From a virus: a DNA stretch of 34,132 nucleotides. A program made the position numbers and the translations under genes. The notes beneath the pieces were generated by a model. That model did no database searches. It saw only the letters and a program-made list of their open reading frames with translations, and was not told the DNA's origin. Numbering within the stretch: position 1 is the stretch's first letter; each line of letters begins with the position of its first letter. Shown here one piece after another: positions 21,856-32,235 of this stretch. The stretch spans positions 1 through 34,132 of IMG/VR virus record IMGVR_UViG_3300009790_000036; one strand, given 5' to 3'.

Positions 21856-21863
21856 TATAAATA
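21856..21863 (+). promoter_or_regulatory. T4-type late promoter
   Basis: An exact TATAAATA begins 8 nt after the giant gene's stop and ends 29 nt before the gp8 start. It gives gp8 and the downstream genes their own late transcript. Confidence 0.87.
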
Positions 21864-23518: not shown

Positions 23519-26500
23519 ATGCCACAAAAGACTAATTTAAATATAAGTCCTTATTACGATGATTTTGATAAGGCGAAGAACTATTACAAGGTTTTATTTA
23601 AGCCTGGATATCCAGTTCAAGCAAGAGAATTAACAGGACTGCAATCAATATTACAGAATCAGATAGAATCTTTCGGTAATCATATCTTTAGAGAAGGATC
23701 TATGGTTATACCTGGATCTGTGACATATGATAGCACATATTTCTCATGTAAGGTAAATGATGATCATTTAGGGATAGATGTTAGTATATACCTTGATTCA
23801 TTAATAGCTAATGGTGGAACAAAGGTAAGGGGTCAAAATTCTCAGATTGTTGCTAAGATTGTTAATTATGTTTTACCTCCAGCAGAAGGTGTTGATGACA
23901 TTACAATTTTTGTAAAATATACAGAGTCTGATAGTGTTGGAGCAAGTGATCATTTTCCAAATGGAGAAATATTAGTTCTTGATGAAAATGTTACTTATGG
24001 AAACACAACATTAAACTCTGGTGATACTGTATTAACTTTAGTCAGTGAAAATGCAACAGCAACTGGATCTGCTGTTGGTGTGGATAATGGTGTATATTTT
24101 ATTAGAGGTACTTTTGTTGATGTATCAAAATCTTTAATAGTACTAGAACCATACACAAGTTCACCATCATATAGAGTTGGATTTGAAATTATTGAGGAAG
24201 TTGTATCTTCTAATGATGATTCTACTTTAAATGATAATGCAAAAGGATTTACCAATTTCGCTGCTCCAGGTGCTGATAGATTTAAAATTAGTGTTAAGTT
24301 AGCAAAAAAAGCACTTGATGACTTTGATGATACTAATTTTGTAGAATTAGTTAAAGTAAAAACAGGTCAAGTTAAAAAATTACAGAATACTACTTTATAT
24401 TCTGAGATAAAAAAATATCTTGCTAAGAGAACTTATGATGAGTCTGGTAATTATGCTATAAGACCATTTACCGTTAATGTACAAAACTCATTAAATGATG
24501 AGATAGGATCTAATGGTTTATTTGTTGAAGGTGAAAAAACTGACGAACTTAATGTGCCTAATGATGATTTGGCATGTATAAAATTATCACCAGGTACAGC
24601 GTATGTTAGAGGATTTGATGTTCCGTTAACAGGAACTACCGTTTTAGATGTAGAAAAACCAAGAGATACTAAGAGTATAAAATCTTCCTCTGTCTCATTT
24701 AAGATGGGAAGTTTGTTAAAGGTTAATAATCCACATGGAACACCTCTTATAAACTTAGGAAATTCATCAACTGGTAGTAAATTAGCAAATAATGTAGATC
24801 TTTTCAGTCAAAGAAAGGGAACTGGTGTTCCAACTGCTGGTGCTGGTACTAAAGTTGGTGAAGCTCGTGTGTATACATTTGCTCCCTCCGATGATACTTA
24901 TAAAGACTCATCAACAGAATGGGATTTGTATATGTATGATCTTCAAACATATACAAAATTAGATATTGGAAATGGTGCTGGTGGATTAACATATCAGCAA
25001 AATACTTTAGCTCCAGTTGGATCTAAAGTTAGAGGAATGAGTAGTGGTGCAGAAGCATATGTTGCTGATCATCCAACTGCTGGTAGTATAAATGTTGCTC
25101 AAACTACTGGAACTTTTGTTGCTGGTGAAAAATTAGTATTTAATGAAAGAACTAGTAATGTTGGTTTAGATACATGTACAGCTTCAGTATCTGCTGTAAC
25201 ACAGTATACGATTGATGATATAAAATCAGTTTTCCAACCTACAACTGTTGGATCTCTTCAAAAGGCATTTACGGCTGATGCTGTCCTTTATGATAGAATT
25301 TTACCTAATTTCTCTAAAACAGATACGTTAAATGTTGCTACTGATGGAAGTAATGTTACCACTGCAACCTGTGCACAAAGAAGATTTTCTGGAATTAATG
25401 GTGTAAAAGTAGATACTATACTTGGTTATTCAAATAGTACTTCAACCGATCCAATTTATAATGTAGTTTCTGCTATTTCTAATGATGGTGGTACTATAAC
25501 ACTTACTGCAGCACCTGCTGATGTTGTTGGTGTATGTGATAAGGATGTACCAGCAACTAGTACAACAGTTAGTTCAACATTTACTGTTAAATCTCCTAAA
25601 ATAATTAACTTTAATAGATCTGGACTTTATAGTAGATTGCCTAAGAAAAATATTTCTACAGTAGACTTATCTGATTCTAATTTGATAATATCAAGACAGG
25701 TTTCTGGCAAATCCTTAGAATCAAGTGGTACTTACAATGGAAATCTTGTAGTTCAAGCTAGTCAGGTATTTGAAAATTCTGGATCAGATGGTGCTTTAGG
25801 AATTACAACTGCATTCTTTGAACCATTTGATGCTGAAAGGTATTCAATTCATTATAATGACGGTACTATTGAGAAATTAACATCAGATAGAGTAGAAATT
25901 TTATCTGGTGGGTCTGCTATAAGGTTTAATGTACAAAGACCTGGAGAATGGGATACTGCTAATCCAGGAAATACGGGAGTTTTAGATAGTAACATAACTG
26001 TTAATGTCACTTTGAAAAAGTTAGGACTTAGTAGTAAAGGTAAATCTTATGCTCGAAGTTCTCAATTAGAAGTAACAAAGACTGTAGGACTTTCCACATT
26101 CATTACACAGAGCAATGCTTATGGTCTGCGTGTTGAAGATAAGGAAATATCATTAAATGTTCCTGATGTTGTTAAGGTTCATGCTGTACTTGAATCGACT
26201 GATAATTCTAAACCAACTCTTGATACTTTAGAATTTGTATCTGGATTATCTCTTAATACAAATACTTTTGTAGGTGAACGGGTTCTAGGATCAGAGAGTA
26301 GAGCTATTGGACAAGTTGTAAACAGACCAGATGTTGGAAATAAAATTGAATTTGTATATTTAAATGGAAATAGATTTATTGCTGGAGAATCTGTAACTTT
26401 TAAAGAATCTCAAATTACAGCAAATATACAGAAGTCAATAGAAGGCAATTATATTGATAGAACATCTAATTATACATTAGATAAGGGTCATAGAAAGCAA

Positions 26501-29500
26501 TTCTGTGATTATTCTAGACTTGTAAGGAGAGGAAATTCTTCTAATCCTTCTAAGAGATTATTAGTTATTTTTGATTATTATGAAAATGCTGGAACTATAG
26601 GTGATTTCTATACTGTAAATTCATATTCTAAGGATAGATATACACATGATGTTCCAAGTGTTGCTGGAAATAGAGGTTCTGATATTCTTGACTTTAGACC
26701 AAGAGTTAAAGCATTTGCTGATGTAACAGTAGCTTCTGGTAATGCTGGATCTCCATTTGCATTTGAAAATAGAGTATTTGAGACTATTACAAGATATGTT
26801 GTAACACCAGATGAAAGTACAGTTCTTGGGTATAGTTATTATTTACCTAGAATTGATAAATTAGTAATTAATAAAAATGAGCAAGTAAAATTGATTAAAG
26901 GTGTATCTGATGATAAACCAGCACCACCAACTGAAGTTGGTGATTCTATGGAAATCGCTCAGATTACATTCCCACCATATCTTTATGATCCTATTAAAGG
27001 ACCTAAGATTAGATTATATGATAATAGAAGATTTACTATGAGAGATATTGGAAAACTCGAAAAGAGGATTTCAAATCTTGAAATAATGACTTCACTTACT
27101 GCTCTAGAACTTGATACAAAATCACTTCAAGTCAAAGATGCTGACGGTATAGATCGATTTAAATCTGGTTTTGTAGTTAATGACTTTAAAAATAGAGATT
27201 TCATCAATTTTAATGTAGAAGATGGATCTAGATGTGATGTTGATGTAGTCAACAAAGAATTAATCAGTGCTGTTGATTTTTGGTCAATGAAAGCACAAAT
27301 AGGACTTGATCCTGGAATTGATGCAACAACTGCTGACATGACATCTAATCTAAGTCTATTAGATAGTAATACTAAGAAAACTGGAGATTTAGTAACTTTA
27401 GATTATACTGAAACTGATTGGATTGTACAACCACAAGCATCTGGTGTTGAAAATATTAACCCATTTAATGTTATTGTTTATGTTGGCGGTATTCAGTTAG
27501 ATCCTCCATCAGATAACTGGACAAGAACAATTTATGTTGATAATAAGAGAACAGAATCAACTGGTAATACATGGAATACTGTAGCAAATGTTATTTCTGA
27601 TAACACAACAACACAAACAGATGTAGATGTAACTGTAACTGAAGTTGATCCTGGAGAGGATGATCCAGATACACATGGACAGTTTGAGGGTAATCATATT
27701 GATACCACTACAACAACCACTACAACTACAACTCAAACTGTAGAAACTAGTTTTACTAATCAATTAACTGGTAATAACCAAGAATTTGATTATGTTGAAA
27801 GTATAAAGATTAATGGTAATACAGATCCATTTATGAGATCTAGGAATGTTTATTTTGCTGCTAACGGGTTAAAACCATTCACAAAGCATATCCACAAGTT
27901 AGATAGTGGTGTGCCTGATATGTTCCCTAAATTGATTGAAATTTCAACTACTGCTGGATCTGGTAATGGATTTACAGTTGGTGAAGATGTTAGAGTAATG
28001 AATGGATTCTATACTATAGGTAAAGTTAAAGCACAAGCACCAAACCATAAATTTGGTGATGAGAACAGACCTGAATTTGCTGCTGGATTGGGACATCCTG
28101 CAGTTACAGTTGAAAAATATACAGTCGATCCTTTTGATAGATCTAGACCTGCACCTTCAAATACATATTCTTCAACGTCAGTTTTATTTAATTGTGATAT
28201 TAGTGCCTTAGCTAATGGAACAAACTATTATGGTTATGTTGTTAAGGGTGCTACGTTAGTTGGAGAGACTTCTGGTACTGAAGCAACTGTAACAAATGTT
28301 GATTTAATGTCTGATAATTGGGGTGATGTTTTAGGAGCATTCTTCTTTAGAAATGCTAATCAAACACCACAACCATCAGTATTATTCTATAGTGGAACTA
28401 AAACCTTTAGATTAACTGCAAATACAACTGGTGCTTTTGTTCCTCCAGGCAGCACTGCTCTTGCTAGTGATGCTAGTGGAACTTATACGGGAACTGGAAC
28501 TATATTAGAAGTAACTACAAGTACTGTTGGTGTTAGAAATCCACCAGAACCTGCACAAAAACCTAATGAAATTACATCTACAATAAGTGTAAGTTCTACT
28601 TCATCTACAACGAGAGTAGAAGCACCTTATAGGGATCCTCTAGCACAATCATTTACAGTTGATGAAACTGGAGCATTCTTAACATCATTTGATGTTTATT
28701 TCTATAAGAAAGATCCAAATGCTAAAGTATTTGTTGAACTTAGAACTGTAGAGTTAGGAACACCTACAAGTTTCCTTGTTCAGGATTATGCTCAAGTAGC
28801 TTTAAATCCAAATAATATTAATACTTCAGATGATGCATCTGTACCAACTACAATTAATTTCCCATCACCAGTATTCTTAGAATCTGGTAAAGAATATGCT
28901 CTTGTATTCCTATCACCTGGTTCTGATGAATTTGAAATGTGGGTTGCTACTATGGGTCAAAAGAACGTAACTCCTCCAGTAGGATTACCTGCAACAACTG
29001 ATGATTCTCAATTTGGTGTTGTTACTAAGCAATATATTGGTGGTAGTTTATTTAAATCTCAAAACGGTACAATTTGGACACCTAGCCAATATCAAGATCT
29101 TAAATTCACACTTAGAAAGGCAGCATTTGTTCCTGAAGGATCAGTAACTTTCTATAATAGTTCTATTGAACCTGGTAATAACAATACACAATTGTTACCT
29201 AGCAATCCAATTAGATCTTTCCCTAGAAAACTTAGAGTTAGTTTAGCTGGGGTTGCTGAAGAAACTGTATCAAGTATACCTGTAGGTAGAAAGATAAGTA
29301 CAGGTCTTGTAGGTGATATTGAAGATAATAGTATTACTGCTGTTATTGAAGAAAGAGGTGGTCCTGTTTCATTAACACCTGTTGGATTAAAACCAGTAGC
29401 AAATGGATCTGGATATGACGTAGCTACTCATTCTTCTGCAAAATTCCTATCTGTAGATGGTAATGGTACAGGATTAAGTGGTAGTGTTACTGTTGCTACT

Positions 29501-31129
29501 AATGGAGCGTTGAGTGTAGGTAGTTTAACTAATAAAGGATCTGGATATAGAGTTGGTGAAATTTTAACTCTGGATGTTTCTCAAACTGGAACATTAACTG
29601 GTGGAGAAGGTTCTAAATTCGTTGTTACTGATATTCAACAAAATGAAATTGATACAATATACTTGACAGATGTTCAAGGTGAAAAATTTGTTAGTGGTGA
29701 TCAAATTATTCATTATGGTGCTAATAATGATACAAGAACAACTCTCACTGGAGTAACTGCAGCATCCGATTCAGTTGCTATTGATGATATACACACTGGA
29801 AATATTATTGAAGTTATTCAACATAACCATGCTCATCATGGTTCCAATAACACAATTAAAATTGAAAATATTCACCCAGATACTTCTAAGTCTGAAACAA
29901 CACAGGATATATCTGCTTCTGCTACCGCAGTATCAGTAGCATCAACTGCTATATTCTCTAAATTTGCTGGTATAACAACTGATAGAGGTGAAGTGTTATT
30001 AAACACTGAAATTGTGTCATATGTAATTGGTGCTTCTAATATACTATCATTAAGTGGTAGGGGTGTTGATGAAACTTTTGCTATCTCTCATCCAACTGGA
30101 TCTACTATCCAACCATATGAAGTTAATGGAATGCCATTAACTAAAATTAATACTACACATACAATTCCTACAAATTCTACATTAAGAAATTTATCAAATA
30201 TTGATAATTATTACTTAGAAATTGATAGAGGAATTGGTAATAGAGCTGCTGGTAAAAATCAGTTAAACTTTATTAGTGAAAAAACCGTAGGTGGTAATAC
30301 TGTTGGGATATCCCAAAATCATCAGTTTAGTTCATTATCTGCACAGTGTAATGTAATAACACCAGGTAAGACACAAGTTAGCTCATCATTTAGAACTGTA
30401 AGTGGTACTAGTGCTAATGGAAATGAGGTATCATTTATTGATCAGGGATTTGAACCAACTATTTTAAACGAAACCACATTCTTCCCAACACCTAGAATAA
30501 TTTCTTCTAAAGTTAATGAAGCTGCTAGACTAGATACTCTTCCAAATCAAAAATCATTGACATTGAAAGTTGATATGACATCTAGCGATGTTAATCTTTC
30601 ACCAGTATTAGATGTTCAGAATGCTACATTTATTGCTGGAAGAAATAAGATTAATAATCCAATTGGTGAAGATAATTATGCTACTGATGACAGATCATCA
30701 AAAGTTTCTGGTGATCCACATGGATCTATATTTGTAACAAGAAAGGTCAATTTAGCACAACCTGCAAGTTCATTAAAAGTTCTTGTTGCTGCTAATGTAC
30801 AATCACAAGCAGATTTTAGAGTTTATTATAGATTATTTACTGCTGATTCTAGTGAAGTTTCTCAATCATATAGAGCATTTCCTGGATTTAAAAATCTAAT
30901 AGATACTGATGGTGATGGTTTCGGTGATCAAGTTATTGATATTGGATTAAATGATGGTAGAGCAGATGCTAAAGTGAATAAGAGTGGTCAAAATGACTTC
31001 TCAGAATATCAATTTAGTGTTGATGATTTAGAACAATTTAATGGATTTACGATTAAGATTGTAATGTCATCTACTAATGAGTGTGTACCAGTTAGACTTA
31101 AAGACTTTAGAGCAATTGCCTTAGCATAA
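23519..31129 (+). CDS. Large virion structural protein with DUF4815-type N-terminus, 2,536 aa
   Basis: The N-terminus, PYYDDFDKAKNYYKVLF (11-27), GYPVQARELTGLQSILQ (30-46) and IFREGSMVIPGSV (56-68), matches the DUF4815 type found in phage tail proteins. Later parts look like T4-like fibre or baseplate material: YFAANGLKPFTKHIH (about 1444); RDPLAQSFTVDETG (about 1704); two G-x-GY strands; a GRGVDETFAISHPTGS segment and YEVNGMPLTKIN near the C-terminus. Ten consecutive Thr (1396-1405), after an acidic stretch, mark a probable linker between halves. It sits directly after gp8 where T4 has gp9 and gp10, so it may replace them in anchoring fibres; this is inferred from position. Its stop overlaps the next start (TAATG). 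Confidence 0.85.
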   Translation: MPQKTNLNISPYYDDFDKAKNYYKVLFKPGYPVQARELTGLQSILQNQIESFGNHIFREGSMVIPGSVTYDSTYFSCKVNDDHLGIDVSIYLDSLIANGGTKVRGQNSQIVAKIVNYVLPPAEGVDDITIFVKYTESDSVGASDHFPNGEILVLDENVTYGNTTLNSGDTVLTLVSENATATGSAVGVDNGVYFIRGTFVDVSKSLIVLEPYTSSPSYRVGFEIIEEVVSSNDDSTLNDNAKGFTNFAAPGADRFKISVKLAKKALDDFDDTNFVELVKVKTGQVKKLQNTTLYSEIKKYLAKRTYDESGNYAIRPFTVNVQNSLNDEIGSNGLFVEGEKTDELNVPNDDLACIKLSPGTAYVRGFDVPLTGTTVLDVEKPRDTKSIKSSSVSFKMGSLLKVNNPHGTPLINLGNSSTGSKLANNVDLFSQRKGTGVPTAGAGTKVGEARVYTFAPSDDTYKDSSTEWDLYMYDLQTYTKLDIGNGAGGLTYQQNTLAPVGSKVRGMSSGAEAYVADHPTAGSINVAQTTGTFVAGEKLVFNERTSNVGLDTCTASVSAVTQYTIDDIKSVFQPTTVGSLQKAFTADAVLYDRILPNFSKTDTLNVATDGSNVTTATCAQRRFSGINGVKVDTILGYSNSTSTDPIYNVVSAISNDGGTITLTAAPADVVGVCDKDVPATSTTVSSTFTVKSPKIINFNRSGLYSRLPKKNISTVDLSDSNLIISRQVSGKSLESSGTYNGNLVVQASQVFENSGSDGALGITTAFFEPFDAERYSIHYNDGTIEKLTSDRVEILSGGSAIRFNVQRPGEWDTANPGNTGVLDSNITVNVTLKKLGLSSKGKSYARSSQLEVTKTVGLSTFITQSNAYGLRVEDKEISLNVPDVVKVHAVLESTDNSKPTLDTLEFVSGLSLNTNTFVGERVLGSESRAIGQVVNRPDVGNKIEFVYLNGNRFIAGESVTFKESQITANIQKSIEGNYIDRTSNYTLDKGHRKQFCDYSRLVRRGNSSNPSKRLLVIFDYYENAGTIGDFYTVNSYSKDRYTHDVPSVAGNRGSDILDFRPRVKAFADVTVASGNAGSPFAFENRVFETITRYVVTPDESTVLGYSYYLPRIDKLVINKNEQVKLIKGVSDDKPAPPTEVGDSMEIAQITFPPYLYDPIKGPKIRLYDNRRFTMRDIGKLEKRISNLEIMTSLTALELDTKSLQVKDADGIDRFKSGFVVNDFKNRDFINFNVEDGSRCDVDVVNKELISAVDFWSMKAQIGLDPGIDATTADMTSNLSLLDSNTKKTGDLVTLDYTETDWIVQPQASGVENINPFNVIVYVGGIQLDPPSDNWTRTIYVDNKRTESTGNTWNTVANVISDNTTTQTDVDVTVTEVDPGEDDPDTHGQFEGNHIDTTTTTTTTTTQTVETSFTNQLTGNNQEFDYVESIKINGNTDPFMRSRNVYFAANGLKPFTKHIHKLDSGVPDMFPKLIEISTTAGSGNGFTVGEDVRVMNGFYTIGKVKAQAPNHKFGDENRPEFAAGLGHPAVTVEKYTVDPFDRSRPAPSNTYSSTSVLFNCDISALANGTNYYGYVVKGATLVGETSGTEATVTNVDLMSDNWGDVLGAFFFRNANQTPQPSVLFYSGTKTFRLTANTTGAFVPPGSTALASDASGTYTGTGTILEVTTSTVGVRNPPEPAQKPNEITSTISVSSTSSTTRVEAPYRDPLAQSFTVDETGAFLTSFDVYFYKKDPNAKVFVELRTVELGTPTSFLVQDYAQVALNPNNINTSDDASVPTTINFPSPVFLESGKEYALVFLSPGSDEFEMWVATMGQKNVTPPVGLPATTDDSQFGVVTKQYIGGSLFKSQNGTIWTPSQYQDLKFTLRKAAFVPEGSVTFYNSSIEPGNNNTQLLPSNPIRSFPRKLRVSLAGVAEETVSSIPVGRKISTGLVGDIEDNSITAVIEERGGPVSLTPVGLKPVANGSGYDVATHSSAKFLSVDGNGTGLSGSVTVATNGALSVGSLTNKGSGYRVGEILTLDVSQTGTLTGGEGSKFVVTDIQQNEIDTIYLTDVQGEKFVSGDQIIHYGANNDTRTTLTGVTAASDSVAIDDIHTGNIIEVIQHNHAHHGSNNTIKIENIHPDTSKSETTQDISASATAVSVASTAIFSKFAGITTDRGEVLLNTEIVSYVIGASNILSLSGRGVDETFAISHPTGSTIQPYEVNGMPLTKINTTHTIPTNSTLRNLSNIDNYYLEIDRGIGNRAAGKNQLNFISEKTVGGNTVGISQNHQFSSLSAQCNVITPGKTQVSSSFRTVSGTSANGNEVSFIDQGFEPTILNETTFFPTPRIISSKVNEAARLDTLPNQKSLTLKVDMTSSDVNLSPVLDVQNATFIAGRNKINNPIGEDNYATDDRSSKVSGDPHGSIFVTRKVNLAQPASSLKVLVAANVQSQADFRVYYRLFTADSSEVSQSYRAFPGFKNLIDTDGDGFGDQVIDIGLNDGRADAKVNKSGQNDFSEYQFSVDDLEQFNGFTIKIVMSSTNECVPVRLKDFRAIALA

Positions 31130-31638
31130 TGATAACATTTCAAGAATTTTTAGTATTATGTGAAGGTGGTTTATCAAGATATCTTGGTAAGTCTGAAACT
31201 CACGATACTGGTCATATATCACCTGATCGTGGAGATGATGAAAATGAAAATCGTAAGAAAAGAAGAAGTCTTGAGAATGATTTAAAACGAAGTGGTGTTG
31301 GATTTAGAAAATCTACTGGAAAATATAAGTACGATGATGGATCTGATGCTCGTGAAGTTTCTTATGCAACCACAAGACCAAGCAGTATGTCTAAACGAAA
31401 GTTTGGAACTCTTATGAGAAGTCTTGGCAATAAGTATGGTCAAGAGTCTATCATTACAAAGAAAGCTGGAAAAGATGCTAGATTACATTATACTGATGGT
31501 AGTGGAAGAACTCCTGATAATATAGGATCAGCAAAACCAGGTCCACATCCAGATGGTTATGGTGAAACTGGTGAAAAGAGACAACGTGGTAAAAAATTAA
31601 AAGATAAGAAAAAGGATAGAGACTTCCACTATTCATGA
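31129..31638 (+). CDS. Basic protein with capsid-targeting-like N-terminus, 169 aa
   Basis: The N-terminus MITFQEFLVLCEGG resembles the capsid-targeting sequence of T4 internal proteins (MKTYQEFIAEA). It is followed by a possible gp21-type prohead protease site (L-C-E before G; consensus L/I-x-E before A/G/S). The rest is strongly basic: many Lys/Arg, a folded-looking middle (REVSYATTRPSSMSKRKFG, then LGNKYGQESIITKK), and a Gly/Lys-rich tail ending KKLKDKKKDRDFHYS. That suits a DNA-binding protein packaged in the head and injected with the genome. The start overlaps the upstream stop (TAATG) and the stop overlaps the next start (ATGA). The middle may be a small alpha/beta domain but I cannot name it. 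Confidence 0.75.
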   Translation: MITFQEFLVLCEGGLSRYLGKSETHDTGHISPDRGDDENENRKKRRSLENDLKRSGVGFRKSTGKYKYDDGSDAREVSYATTRPSSMSKRKFGTLMRSLGNKYGQESIITKKAGKDARLHYTDGSGRTPDNIGSAKPGPHPDGYGETGEKRQRGKKLKDKKKDRDFHYS

Positions 31639-31772
31639 GGAATTCTGTAAATCCAGCAACCAAATTTATTATAGATCCTAGTGGATCTGGTAAATTAGTT
31701 AAATTTCATCTTCCAATAGATCTTAGATCTGTTGATGACAAGTTAAAACAATATCCGTTTAATCAGATATGA
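31635..31772 (+). CDS. Small protein, 45 aa, unknown function
   Basis: ATG 31635 overlaps the preceding stop (ATGA) and its own TGA (31770-31772) overlaps the next start (ATGA). It has no match that I recognise. The sequence begins MRNSVNPATKFIIDPSGSGK and continues LVKFHLPIDLRSVDD; it is mildly basic with alternating hydrophobic residues, probably a small beta-type protein. Overlap on both sides within a row of coupled genes is the main support for its being real. Confidence 0.65.
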   Translation: MRNSVNPATKFIIDPSGSGKLVKFHLPIDLRSVDDKLKQYPFNQI

Positions 31773-32035
31773 AGACCTTTAAACAATTTCTAGAAGAAGC
31801 TGCTAATTCTATTAGAGGTATTAGAGACAGTGGACATAAATTATATAAAGGTGGTCGTGAAGCACCTATCAATTTACCATCTGGAATGACTGGATATGGG
31901 TGGAGAATTAAGAAAGCAAAACTTTCTAAAGATGATAAACTTATGATAAGGTATAAGGATATTAATAATCCTAAAAAACCATCTGAGGCTGATTTACTCA
32001 AAGGAACAGGAGTTTTACCAATTACAAAAGCATGA
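31769..32035 (+). CDS. Small basic protein with capsid-targeting-like N-terminus, 88 aa
   Basis: The first 12 residues, MKTFKQFLEEAA, closely match the T4 internal-protein targeting signal MKTYQEFIAEA. A gp21-type cleavage site (L-E-E before A) falls at residue 10/11, as in T4. The mature part is Lys/Arg-rich (GHKLYKGGREA, RIKKAKLSKDDK), consistent with a packaged DNA-associated protein. In T4 such proteins (IPI-IPIII, Alt) are targeted to the prohead core, trimmed and injected; IPI counters host restriction. The role here is unknown. Start and stop overlap the neighbouring genes (ATGA), so expression is coupled to late structural genes. Confidence 0.75.
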   Translation: MKTFKQFLEEAANSIRGIRDSGHKLYKGGREAPINLPSGMTGYGWRIKKAKLSKDDKLMIRYKDINNPKKPSEADLLKGTGVLPITKA

Positions 32036-32235
32036 TACCAGTTGAAGGACATAAAGACCTGTTTCGTGATGAAAAAACAGGAGCAATATTAGATACAAAT
32101 TCTAATTCATATTCTAGTTATATTACTAGAAAAAATAAAAAAATGGATGAAAAAGCTGAATTGGATAATATGAAAAAGGATATCCAAGAAATTAAAGAAC
32201 TATTAAAACAAATTACAGGTCAGATAACATCTTAA
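32032..32235 (+). CDS. Small coiled-coil protein, 67 aa
   Basis: ATG 32032 overlaps the preceding stop (ATGA); TAA is at 32233-32235, directly before a late promoter. The N-half has DLFRDEKTGAILDTNSN, typical of a short beta-hairpin. The C-half (MDEKAELDNMKKDIQEIKEL, then LKQITGQI) has heptad-like spacing of hydrophobic residues and should form a coiled coil. I recall similar small proteins in T4-like marine phages without a known role. It may oligomerise or bind a virion component. Confidence 0.7.
   Translation: MIPVEGHKDLFRDEKTGAILDTNSNSYSSYITRKNKKMDEKAELDNMKKDIQEIKELLKQITGQITS

Follow-up and report, generated by a model that had tools for sequence, protein, structure and literature searches.

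A putative T4-type capsid-targeted head protein in an accessory cargo slot of P-SSM2-like cyanophages

Introduction

The closest described systems to the gene considered here are the internal proteins of bacteriophage T4, which are injected into the host. One of them, IPI, is an inhibitor of a restriction enzyme; another, IPIII, is required on strain ECOR17 (PMC3012670, PMC9391042). Analysis of T4 mutants assigned targeting mainly to residues 4 and 7 and processing to residues 8 and 10, and Asp10 still allowed targeting but inhibited processing (PMC9026906). In the T4 record (NC_000866), ipII and ipIII start with MKTYQEFIAEA, and ipI with MKTFKEFTSTTT...ITEA. Herein we analyse a virus record of 34,132 bases (IMG/VR record IMGVR_UViG_3300009790_000036; the whole stretch is referred to as the window) that contains an 88-residue open reading frame (ORF) with an ATG start on the plus strand (31769-32035, MKTFKQFLEEAANSIRG...), a relative of PSSM2_115 (T4-GC 111) of phage P-SSM2. 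Its product is, with good though not complete confidence, attributed to a capsid-targeted, protease-trimmed internal head protein that is probably an injected accessory effector. It shares with the T4 internal proteins a 10-residue N-terminal tag in which positions 4 and 7 are aromatic, position 8 is hydrophobic and position 10 is Glu, and with IPII and IPIII also Ala11; further common traits are a body that differs between phages and an accessory role. The differences are that the window stems from a P-SSM2-type cyanophage, that the mature part has no detected likeness to the T4 proteins, that the locus lies between baseplate and neck genes, and that packaging is predicted. The protein would as such be a further example of a known, T4-type kind, within a wider cargo system.

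Cyanophage virions have repeatedly yielded enzymes of non-structural appearance, for which the respective authors could not decide between cargo and contamination (PMC10665884, PMC9602691). With a readable address tag, such cases could be judged by sequence. Proteins of abundant ocean phages that are candidates for injection could also be listed in this way, and hints at counter-defence functions would be gained for hosts about whose defences little is known. According to a review, the T4 tag is possibly a general protein-loading route of T4-like phages (PMC9026906). The present data carry this idea over to cyanophages, with a concrete test set; no cyanophage description of the tag was found in the literature searched, accessible in part and mostly outside subscription journals.

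Results and discussion

The 88-residue protein and its tag

The tag, MKTFKQFLEE (31769-31798), is followed by a predicted cut after codon 10 and before Ala11 (MKTFKQFLEE/A, the slash marking the cut in this and all following motifs), and agrees with T4 IPII and IPIII at the mutant-defined residues 4, 7, 8 and 10. The almost exact T4 capsid-targeting sequence reported in the initial annotation of this DNA is thus present as described. The same holds for the gp21-type cleavage site that it placed at the T4 position, found as LEE/A in the window and nearly invariant across the family. Written as a degenerate DNA pattern (M-K-x-[FY]-x-x-F-hydrophobic-x-E), the motif occurs at a single site in the window, position 31769, and in none of 100 dinucleotide-preserving shuffles. 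The predicted mature protein (78 residues, 31799-32032) has a variable middle and a C-terminal part (KDINNPKKPSEKDL) kept in most relatives, and its computed isoelectric point (pI) of 10.2 bears out the basic remainder of ~78 residues noted initially. A Pfam profile search of the 88-residue protein gave no match at E 0.1, and a PHROGs search returned three weak matches only (best E 0.083), all within residues 1-22, that is, the tag. The claim that the mature part is unrelated to known internal proteins therefore stands as far as Pfam and PHROGs reach. AlphaFold, run on a 16-member alignment of the family, gave a mostly helical prediction of low confidence (predicted local distance difference test, pLDDT, 64.4; predicted template modelling score, pTM, 0.28).

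The gene order of the window (gp25-, gp6-, giant gp7- and gp8-like genes, a 2536-residue gene, small genes and the next long gene) matches the baseplate region of P-SSM2. For the last 4.1 kb of the window, the closest records are those of Marine virus AG-345-F15 (MH319749) and P-SSM2, with 91.0% and 73.5% DNA identity, respectively, both classed as Salacisavirus. Relatives of the 88-residue ORF were found in P-SSM2 and at 19 IMG/VR loci. The nearest named one, PSSM2_115 (48.9% identity over 88 residues), is already in GenBank as a hypothetical protein; it has gene order and tag in common with the window ORF, and differs in its middle part and in a tag that opens with Met-Lys-Ser instead of Met-Lys-Thr. 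An alignment of 17 family sequences comprises those of the window and P-SSM2 plus 15 from the 19 loci (L005, L018, L019 and L020 were omitted as incomplete or short). Residues M1, K2, F4, K5, F7, L8, E9, K63 and P68 are invariant, and the nearly invariant ones include Q6, E10, A11 and N13, while the middle varies in sequence and length. Differences in the tag amount to 0.215 per codon pair at the third position versus 0.076 at the first and 0.062 at the second, and are mostly synonymous. Given these relatives and the mostly third-position change of the tag codons, the ORF looks like a real gene. No diversifying selection was shown for the body of the family, the nonsynonymous rate (dN) being lower than the synonymous rate (dS) in the 14 closest pairs.

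A slot for tagged cargo

The gene resides in a stretch, hereafter the slot, between the 2536-residue gene on its left (23519-31129, plus strand; the PSSM2_113 counterpart by position and C-terminal part, Pfam DUF4815) and a 67-residue gene on its right (32032-32235, plus strand; the counterpart of T4-GC 112, a "virion structural protein" in RefSeq, phrog_473). A first sample, biased in that its loci were collected via tagged genes together with three named records or the window, held 33 loci with both borders. A further test was based on the best 80 loci, among those listed, selected only by the downstream 75-residue gene, some of the contigs overlapping with the first sample. ATG-started ORFs of at least 40 residues were counted, and regarded as tagged when Phe or Tyr occupied positions 4 and 7, a rule looser than the full motif. 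The slot was complete in 54 of the 80 loci; 33 of these were occupied and 32 of the occupied slots contained a tagged ORF. The two aromatic residues are kept by 47 of 59 slot ORFs, which form 9 body clusters, versus 2 of 532 ORFs outside the slot. When residue 8 and Glu10 are required as well, giving the full motif, 17 of the 47 tagged slot ORFs qualify and 0 of the 532 outside; the cut site is thus conserved to a lesser degree than the residues for targeting. As befits an accessory gene, 21 of the 54 complete slots are empty of ORFs of this size, and other relatives hold unrelated tagged ORFs. Among the 12 untagged slot ORFs, five are a conserved ORF of 45 to 65 residues (as at 31635-31772) and a further five seemingly overlap a tagged gene in another frame. 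The remaining two are a 184-residue ORF in locus L431 and an ORF in L432 that resembles the C-terminal part of the 88-residue family, L432 being the sole occupied slot without a tag. Another slot ORF, of 218 residues (L445:3599-4252), starts with MKTFKTFQQ and carries an HGSS stretch that is ADP-ribosyltransferase-like by eye, with no Pfam match.

Tagged proteins in published virion proteomes

Cytidylyltransferase T4-GC190 was detected in virions of S-SM1 (PMC3037559), and cytidylyltransferases are also listed in virions of S-CREM2 (PMC10665884) and S-SZBM1 (PMC9146016). The best 80 of 375 relatives of T4-GC190, fetched with peptides beyond residue 100 and hence outside the tag, were compared at their N-termini (two were truncated; the first Met of the frame was taken). 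A start of the form M..[FY]..F[ILVM].E is present in 75 of the 78 untruncated loci, or 39 of 42 distinct N-termini, and the N-terminal entropy in this set is lowest at positions 1, 2, 4 and 7, followed by 10 and then 15.

The S-CREM2 record holds 221 annotated features, and purified virions of this phage yielded 52 proteins (PMC10665884, Table 3). A pattern with Lys2 fixed and Glu10 free matches two sites in this genome, the starts of ORF6 and ORF154, both of which are in the virion list. When any start codon was allowed, Lys2 left free and Glu10 required, four sites were obtained, namely the starts of ORF6 (SAM, i.e. S-adenosylmethionine, hydrolase), ORF14 (APH/ChoK-like kinase), ORF136 (hypothetical) and ORF154 (cytidylyltransferase). 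All four are in the virion list, for which the hypergeometric chance is 0.0028, and four sites were reached by none of 300 permuted patterns. The corresponding count for S-SM1, one site, was equalled by 51 of 300 permuted patterns and has no statistical weight alone; P-SSM2 has three sites (1 of 300 permuted patterns), one of them a TTG start of uncertain worth. What these virion-listed S-CREM2 proteins share with the 88-residue protein is the tag motif at the start (PMC10665884 for the list), their bodies being unrelated to it by annotation.

Looser likenesses were seen in ORF13 (MKDLHSFLTE), ORF15 and, from residue 18, ORF12, among the 47 of 52 virion N-termini that were read. The two endolysins and most hypothetical proteins in this set have no tag, and the tag is thus not an explanation of the whole virion list. 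The S-CREM2 authors left open whether the non-structural virion proteins are cargo or contamination, and proposed protection of phage DNA by a SAM hydrolase carried in the virion (PMC10665884). The presence of the motif favours cargo for the tagged ones. As a separate observation, the virion-listed ORF12 (L504:7704-10313), called Cas9-like, has RFASFMAE/A at residues 18-26 and no Pfam match.

Head protease and gp23 processing sites

Peptidase S77, the gp21-type protease, is present in P-SSM2, MH319749 and S-CREM2, as well as in 8 of 20 tag-bearing contigs, which are possibly fragments. Of 10 tag-bearing contigs, 7 contain the gp23 gene, as do all nine of the T4-superfamily genomes analysed. 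In the gp23 precursors of 10 of 14 further relatives, a site of the [ILVMF]xE/[ASGTP] kind ends the delta region (judged by eye); examples are FLYE/S, LLQE/A, ILNE/T, FLSE/S and, in Syn9, ILTE/T. Elsewhere, FLSE/A is seen in P-SSM2, FLTE/A in T4, ILTE/T in S-SM1 and LTE/A in S-CREM2. We take the T4 site to be the true gp23 cut site, and the like-looking sites outside T4 are presumably genuine as well. The initial reading of the gene as a candidate internal head protein gains support from the combined data, i.e. the conservation of T4 residues, the tagged slot, the gp21-type proteases and gp23 sites in relatives, and the published mass-spectrometric detection of other tagged cyanophage proteins in virions.

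Distribution of the tag

A scan of IMG/VR with ATGAAAACNTTYNNNSARTTYHT gave at least 128 matches, which represent a sample; 126 of the 128 are open for at least 40 codons. Together with the window protein, the 126 matches listed make 127 proteins in 79 body clusters. Among these, Glu10, which lies outside the scan pattern, is found in 58 of the 79 cluster representatives (background 6.5%; binomial 3e-51). The strict site [ILMV]xE/[ASG] is present in 30 of 79. Pfam assigned 23 families to the same representatives at E <= 0.01, many of them perhaps by chance; CTP_transf_like (5e-10), GNAT (4.3e-8) and HNH (1.1e-4) are included, and ART-PolyVal occurs twice, above the cut-off in L107 (9.7e-24) and below it in L098 (0.0026). 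PHROG 2667, "internal head protein", is matched weakly by three tagged members (best 0.0029). The start of one representative, the Phage_capsid protein L081, may be a chance likeness. A control pattern with shifted acidic/amide positions, of about equal depth as judged by shared loci, gave 44 matches, of which 30 also fit the real pattern and 14 do not; its matches are thus contaminated by true tags. In a set of 20 contigs, half of them picked as tag-bearing and half taken from a control scan in which some tags are caught as well, there are 26 sites of the tag pattern versus 0 of the reversed pattern.

A stricter pattern identified nine sites in six of nine T4-superfamily genomes: PSSM2_115, PSSM2_194, the cytidylyltransferases of S-SM1 and Syn9, KVP40.0066, Cr30 OZ74_gp060, and T4 gp61.1, ipII and ipIII. 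It has no sites in SPO1, phiKZ and Felix O1, and the reversed pattern gave one site across all 12 genomes, in phiKZ. On balance we favour, with some reserve, the view that marine T4-superfamily phages use the tag as a general address code, by which dozens of unrelated proteins (SAM lyases, ADP-ribosyltransferases, kinases, nucleotidyltransferases) would be loaded into the head and delivered with the DNA, and that P-SSM2-like cyanophages maintain a dedicated, swappable slot in which the 88-residue protein and a ready-made SAM lyase travel together.

Proposed mechanism and alternative explanations

In the proposed sequence of events, the precursor would be made late and its first ten residues, as a T4-type capsid-targeting sequence, would bind the inner core of the prohead via Phe4 and Phe7. 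The gp21-type protease of the phage would then cut after Glu10 (Leu8-x-Glu10/Ala11), and the basic 78-residue remainder would be kept in the head with the DNA and exit with it at infection. For the tag as a class, the support for head targeting is good; to the 88-residue protein it extends by likeness. Trimming is likely, the full site being present, and the tag probably marks cargo carried to the host. That the protein is an injected effector is a plausible guess, made because the T4 internal proteins behave in this way. In view of the cargo slot and the variant-tagged SAM lyase alongside, its most likely job would be early counter-defence or host take-over, directed at a presumed host target.

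Several observations weigh against this assignment. The motif at residues 8-10 is missing from 30 of the 47 tagged slot ORFs, 18 of which are SAM lyases (CE/GG, Glu at 12) and 12 of which keep the targeting residues only, so that cutting, if general, would not always occur at T4 spacing. Within the 88-residue family, L017 and L412 carry Asp10, a residue with which processing is blocked in T4; these proteins may be targeted yet uncut. Peptidase S77 was not found within the 34-kb window, itself a fragment. The strict tag pattern is missing from three of the nine T4-superfamily genomes (S-PM2, HTVC008M, phiM12) and from three gp23-bearing contigs (G021, G022, G028), and 4 of the 14 gp23 precursors have no like-looking site (HTVC008M, S-PM2, G002, G011). 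The cytidylyltransferase relatives of HTVC008M and Cr30 start without the tag, which makes the tag a module. On the side of the virion data, CsCl-purified virions can carry contaminants (PMC10665884, PMC9602691), none of the 30 listed S-SZBM1 proteins is labelled SAM lyase (the SZBM1 lyase homologue was not matched to a locus tag), and virion data on the 88-residue protein or PSSM2_115 were not found in the accessible parts of the literature searched.

Among the alternatives, the one with the largest, albeit still minor, share of our confidence accepts the capsid-targeting tag and regards the protein as a structural or DNA-condensing head component rather than a host-acting effector. The small size and basic character (pI about 10), the conserved C-terminal part and the mostly helical, low-confidence prediction are consistent with such a role, which we nonetheless consider unlikely: the lack of an ORF of at least 40 residues in 21 of 54 slots and the unrelated tagged ORFs elsewhere indicate dispensable cargo, and the middle of the protein is highly variable. 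Less probable still is a reading in which the common N-terminus directs these proteins to a different virion part (baseplate, neck) or to a different protease, with no more than a resemblance to the T4 signal. The genes do sit among baseplate and neck genes, published proteomes cover whole virions and give no protein location, and the 30 slot ORFs lacking a T4-spaced cut motif would fit as well. However, T4 ipII and ipIII, known head proteins, carry the same tag, the cytidylyltransferase set fits the T4 mutant data at residues 4, 7, 8 and 10, the gp23 sites are alike in 10 of 14 precursors, and S-CREM2 ORF6 and ORF14 are located at 3.8-12.8 kb, far from the structural block. That the short N-terminus resembles the T4 tag by chance, or that the ORF is spurious, could be argued from the motif length of just ten residues. 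Either is rendered very improbable by the shuffled windows, by the conserved family with its mostly synonymous tag changes, by the enrichment of Glu10 across body clusters even though this residue was outside the pattern, and by the absence of reversed-pattern sites in the 20 contigs described above.

The upstream SAM lyase and other neighbours

The gene upstream of the 88-residue ORF (31129-31638, plus strand, 169 residues) is a predicted SAM lyase (PF23780), as judged by a profile match and key residues. It carries a variant tag of 12 residues, MITFQEFLVLCE/GG (31129-31164, plus strand), with Glu at position 12 instead of 10; this second tag is absent from the initial annotation. The score against PF23780 (Pfam S-AdoMet_lyase) is 34.0 bits at a curated cut-off of 28 (E 3.2e-8), and tagged relatives reach 62 bits (L282) and 70.1 bits (S-CREM2 ORF6, 35.9% identical to the window lyase). 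For the SAM lyase Svi3-3, Gly56, Tyr58, Glu69, Gln104 and Glu105 have been named as substrate-binding residues (PMC7877911). Their counterparts, TGKY ... E ... QE, were recognised by eye in the window lyase and its close relatives, and a more distant cluster of tagged lyases has Gln-Asp, i.e. Asp replaces the last Glu; one row of this comparison, L087, is not a relative. The window gene thus resembles Svi3-3 and the T3 SAMase in its match to PF23780 and its Svi3-3 residue counterparts, and differs from both in having an N-terminal tag and in sitting within a virion gene run. The T3 enzyme is reported to be expressed before any other viral protein upon infection (PMC8406200). In P-TIM40, the lyase is the C-terminal portion of a longer protein with FSDFLNE/G at the joint. 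A search of solved-structure sequences with the window lyase returned one chance-level match (E 0.13).

An untagged 45-residue ORF (MRNSVNPATKFIIDPSGSG..., 31635-31772, plus strand) lies between the two tagged genes and is kept in several relatives. Further upstream, TATAAATA (21856-21863, plus strand) is located just before the gp8-like gene that starts the gene run of the slot, and resembles the T4 late promoter consensus. This octamer was not found to be over-represented in the window (3 observed versus 6.8 expected); all three sites are on the coding strand, shortly before genes.

Further tagged genes

T4 gp61.1 (54 residues; NC_000866 18966-19130, L265), beside gene 61.2, starts with MKTFKEFIKED and may be a further capsid-targeted T4 protein. 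KVP40.0066 (NC_005083 39187-39834, L267) and Cr30 gp060 (NC_025422 28015-28335, L268) likewise have the tag at the start, the latter with a weak PARP match (0.0018, below cut-off). Clusters of tagged genes were also seen, with two adjoining genes at L107:6037-7306, the first a confident ADP-ribosyltransferase (ART-PolyVal, 9.7e-24), and four within 2.9 kb at L091:6505-9422. Finally, the P-TIM40_114 domain (DUF6321 in RefSeq) occurs in two settings, on its own after a tag-like start and as the final unit of long multi-domain frames, where it often follows an xE junction as judged by eye (loci L422, L064, L056, L059, L075; L021, L029, L287, L066). Such long frames may encode polyproteins that the head protease cleaves.
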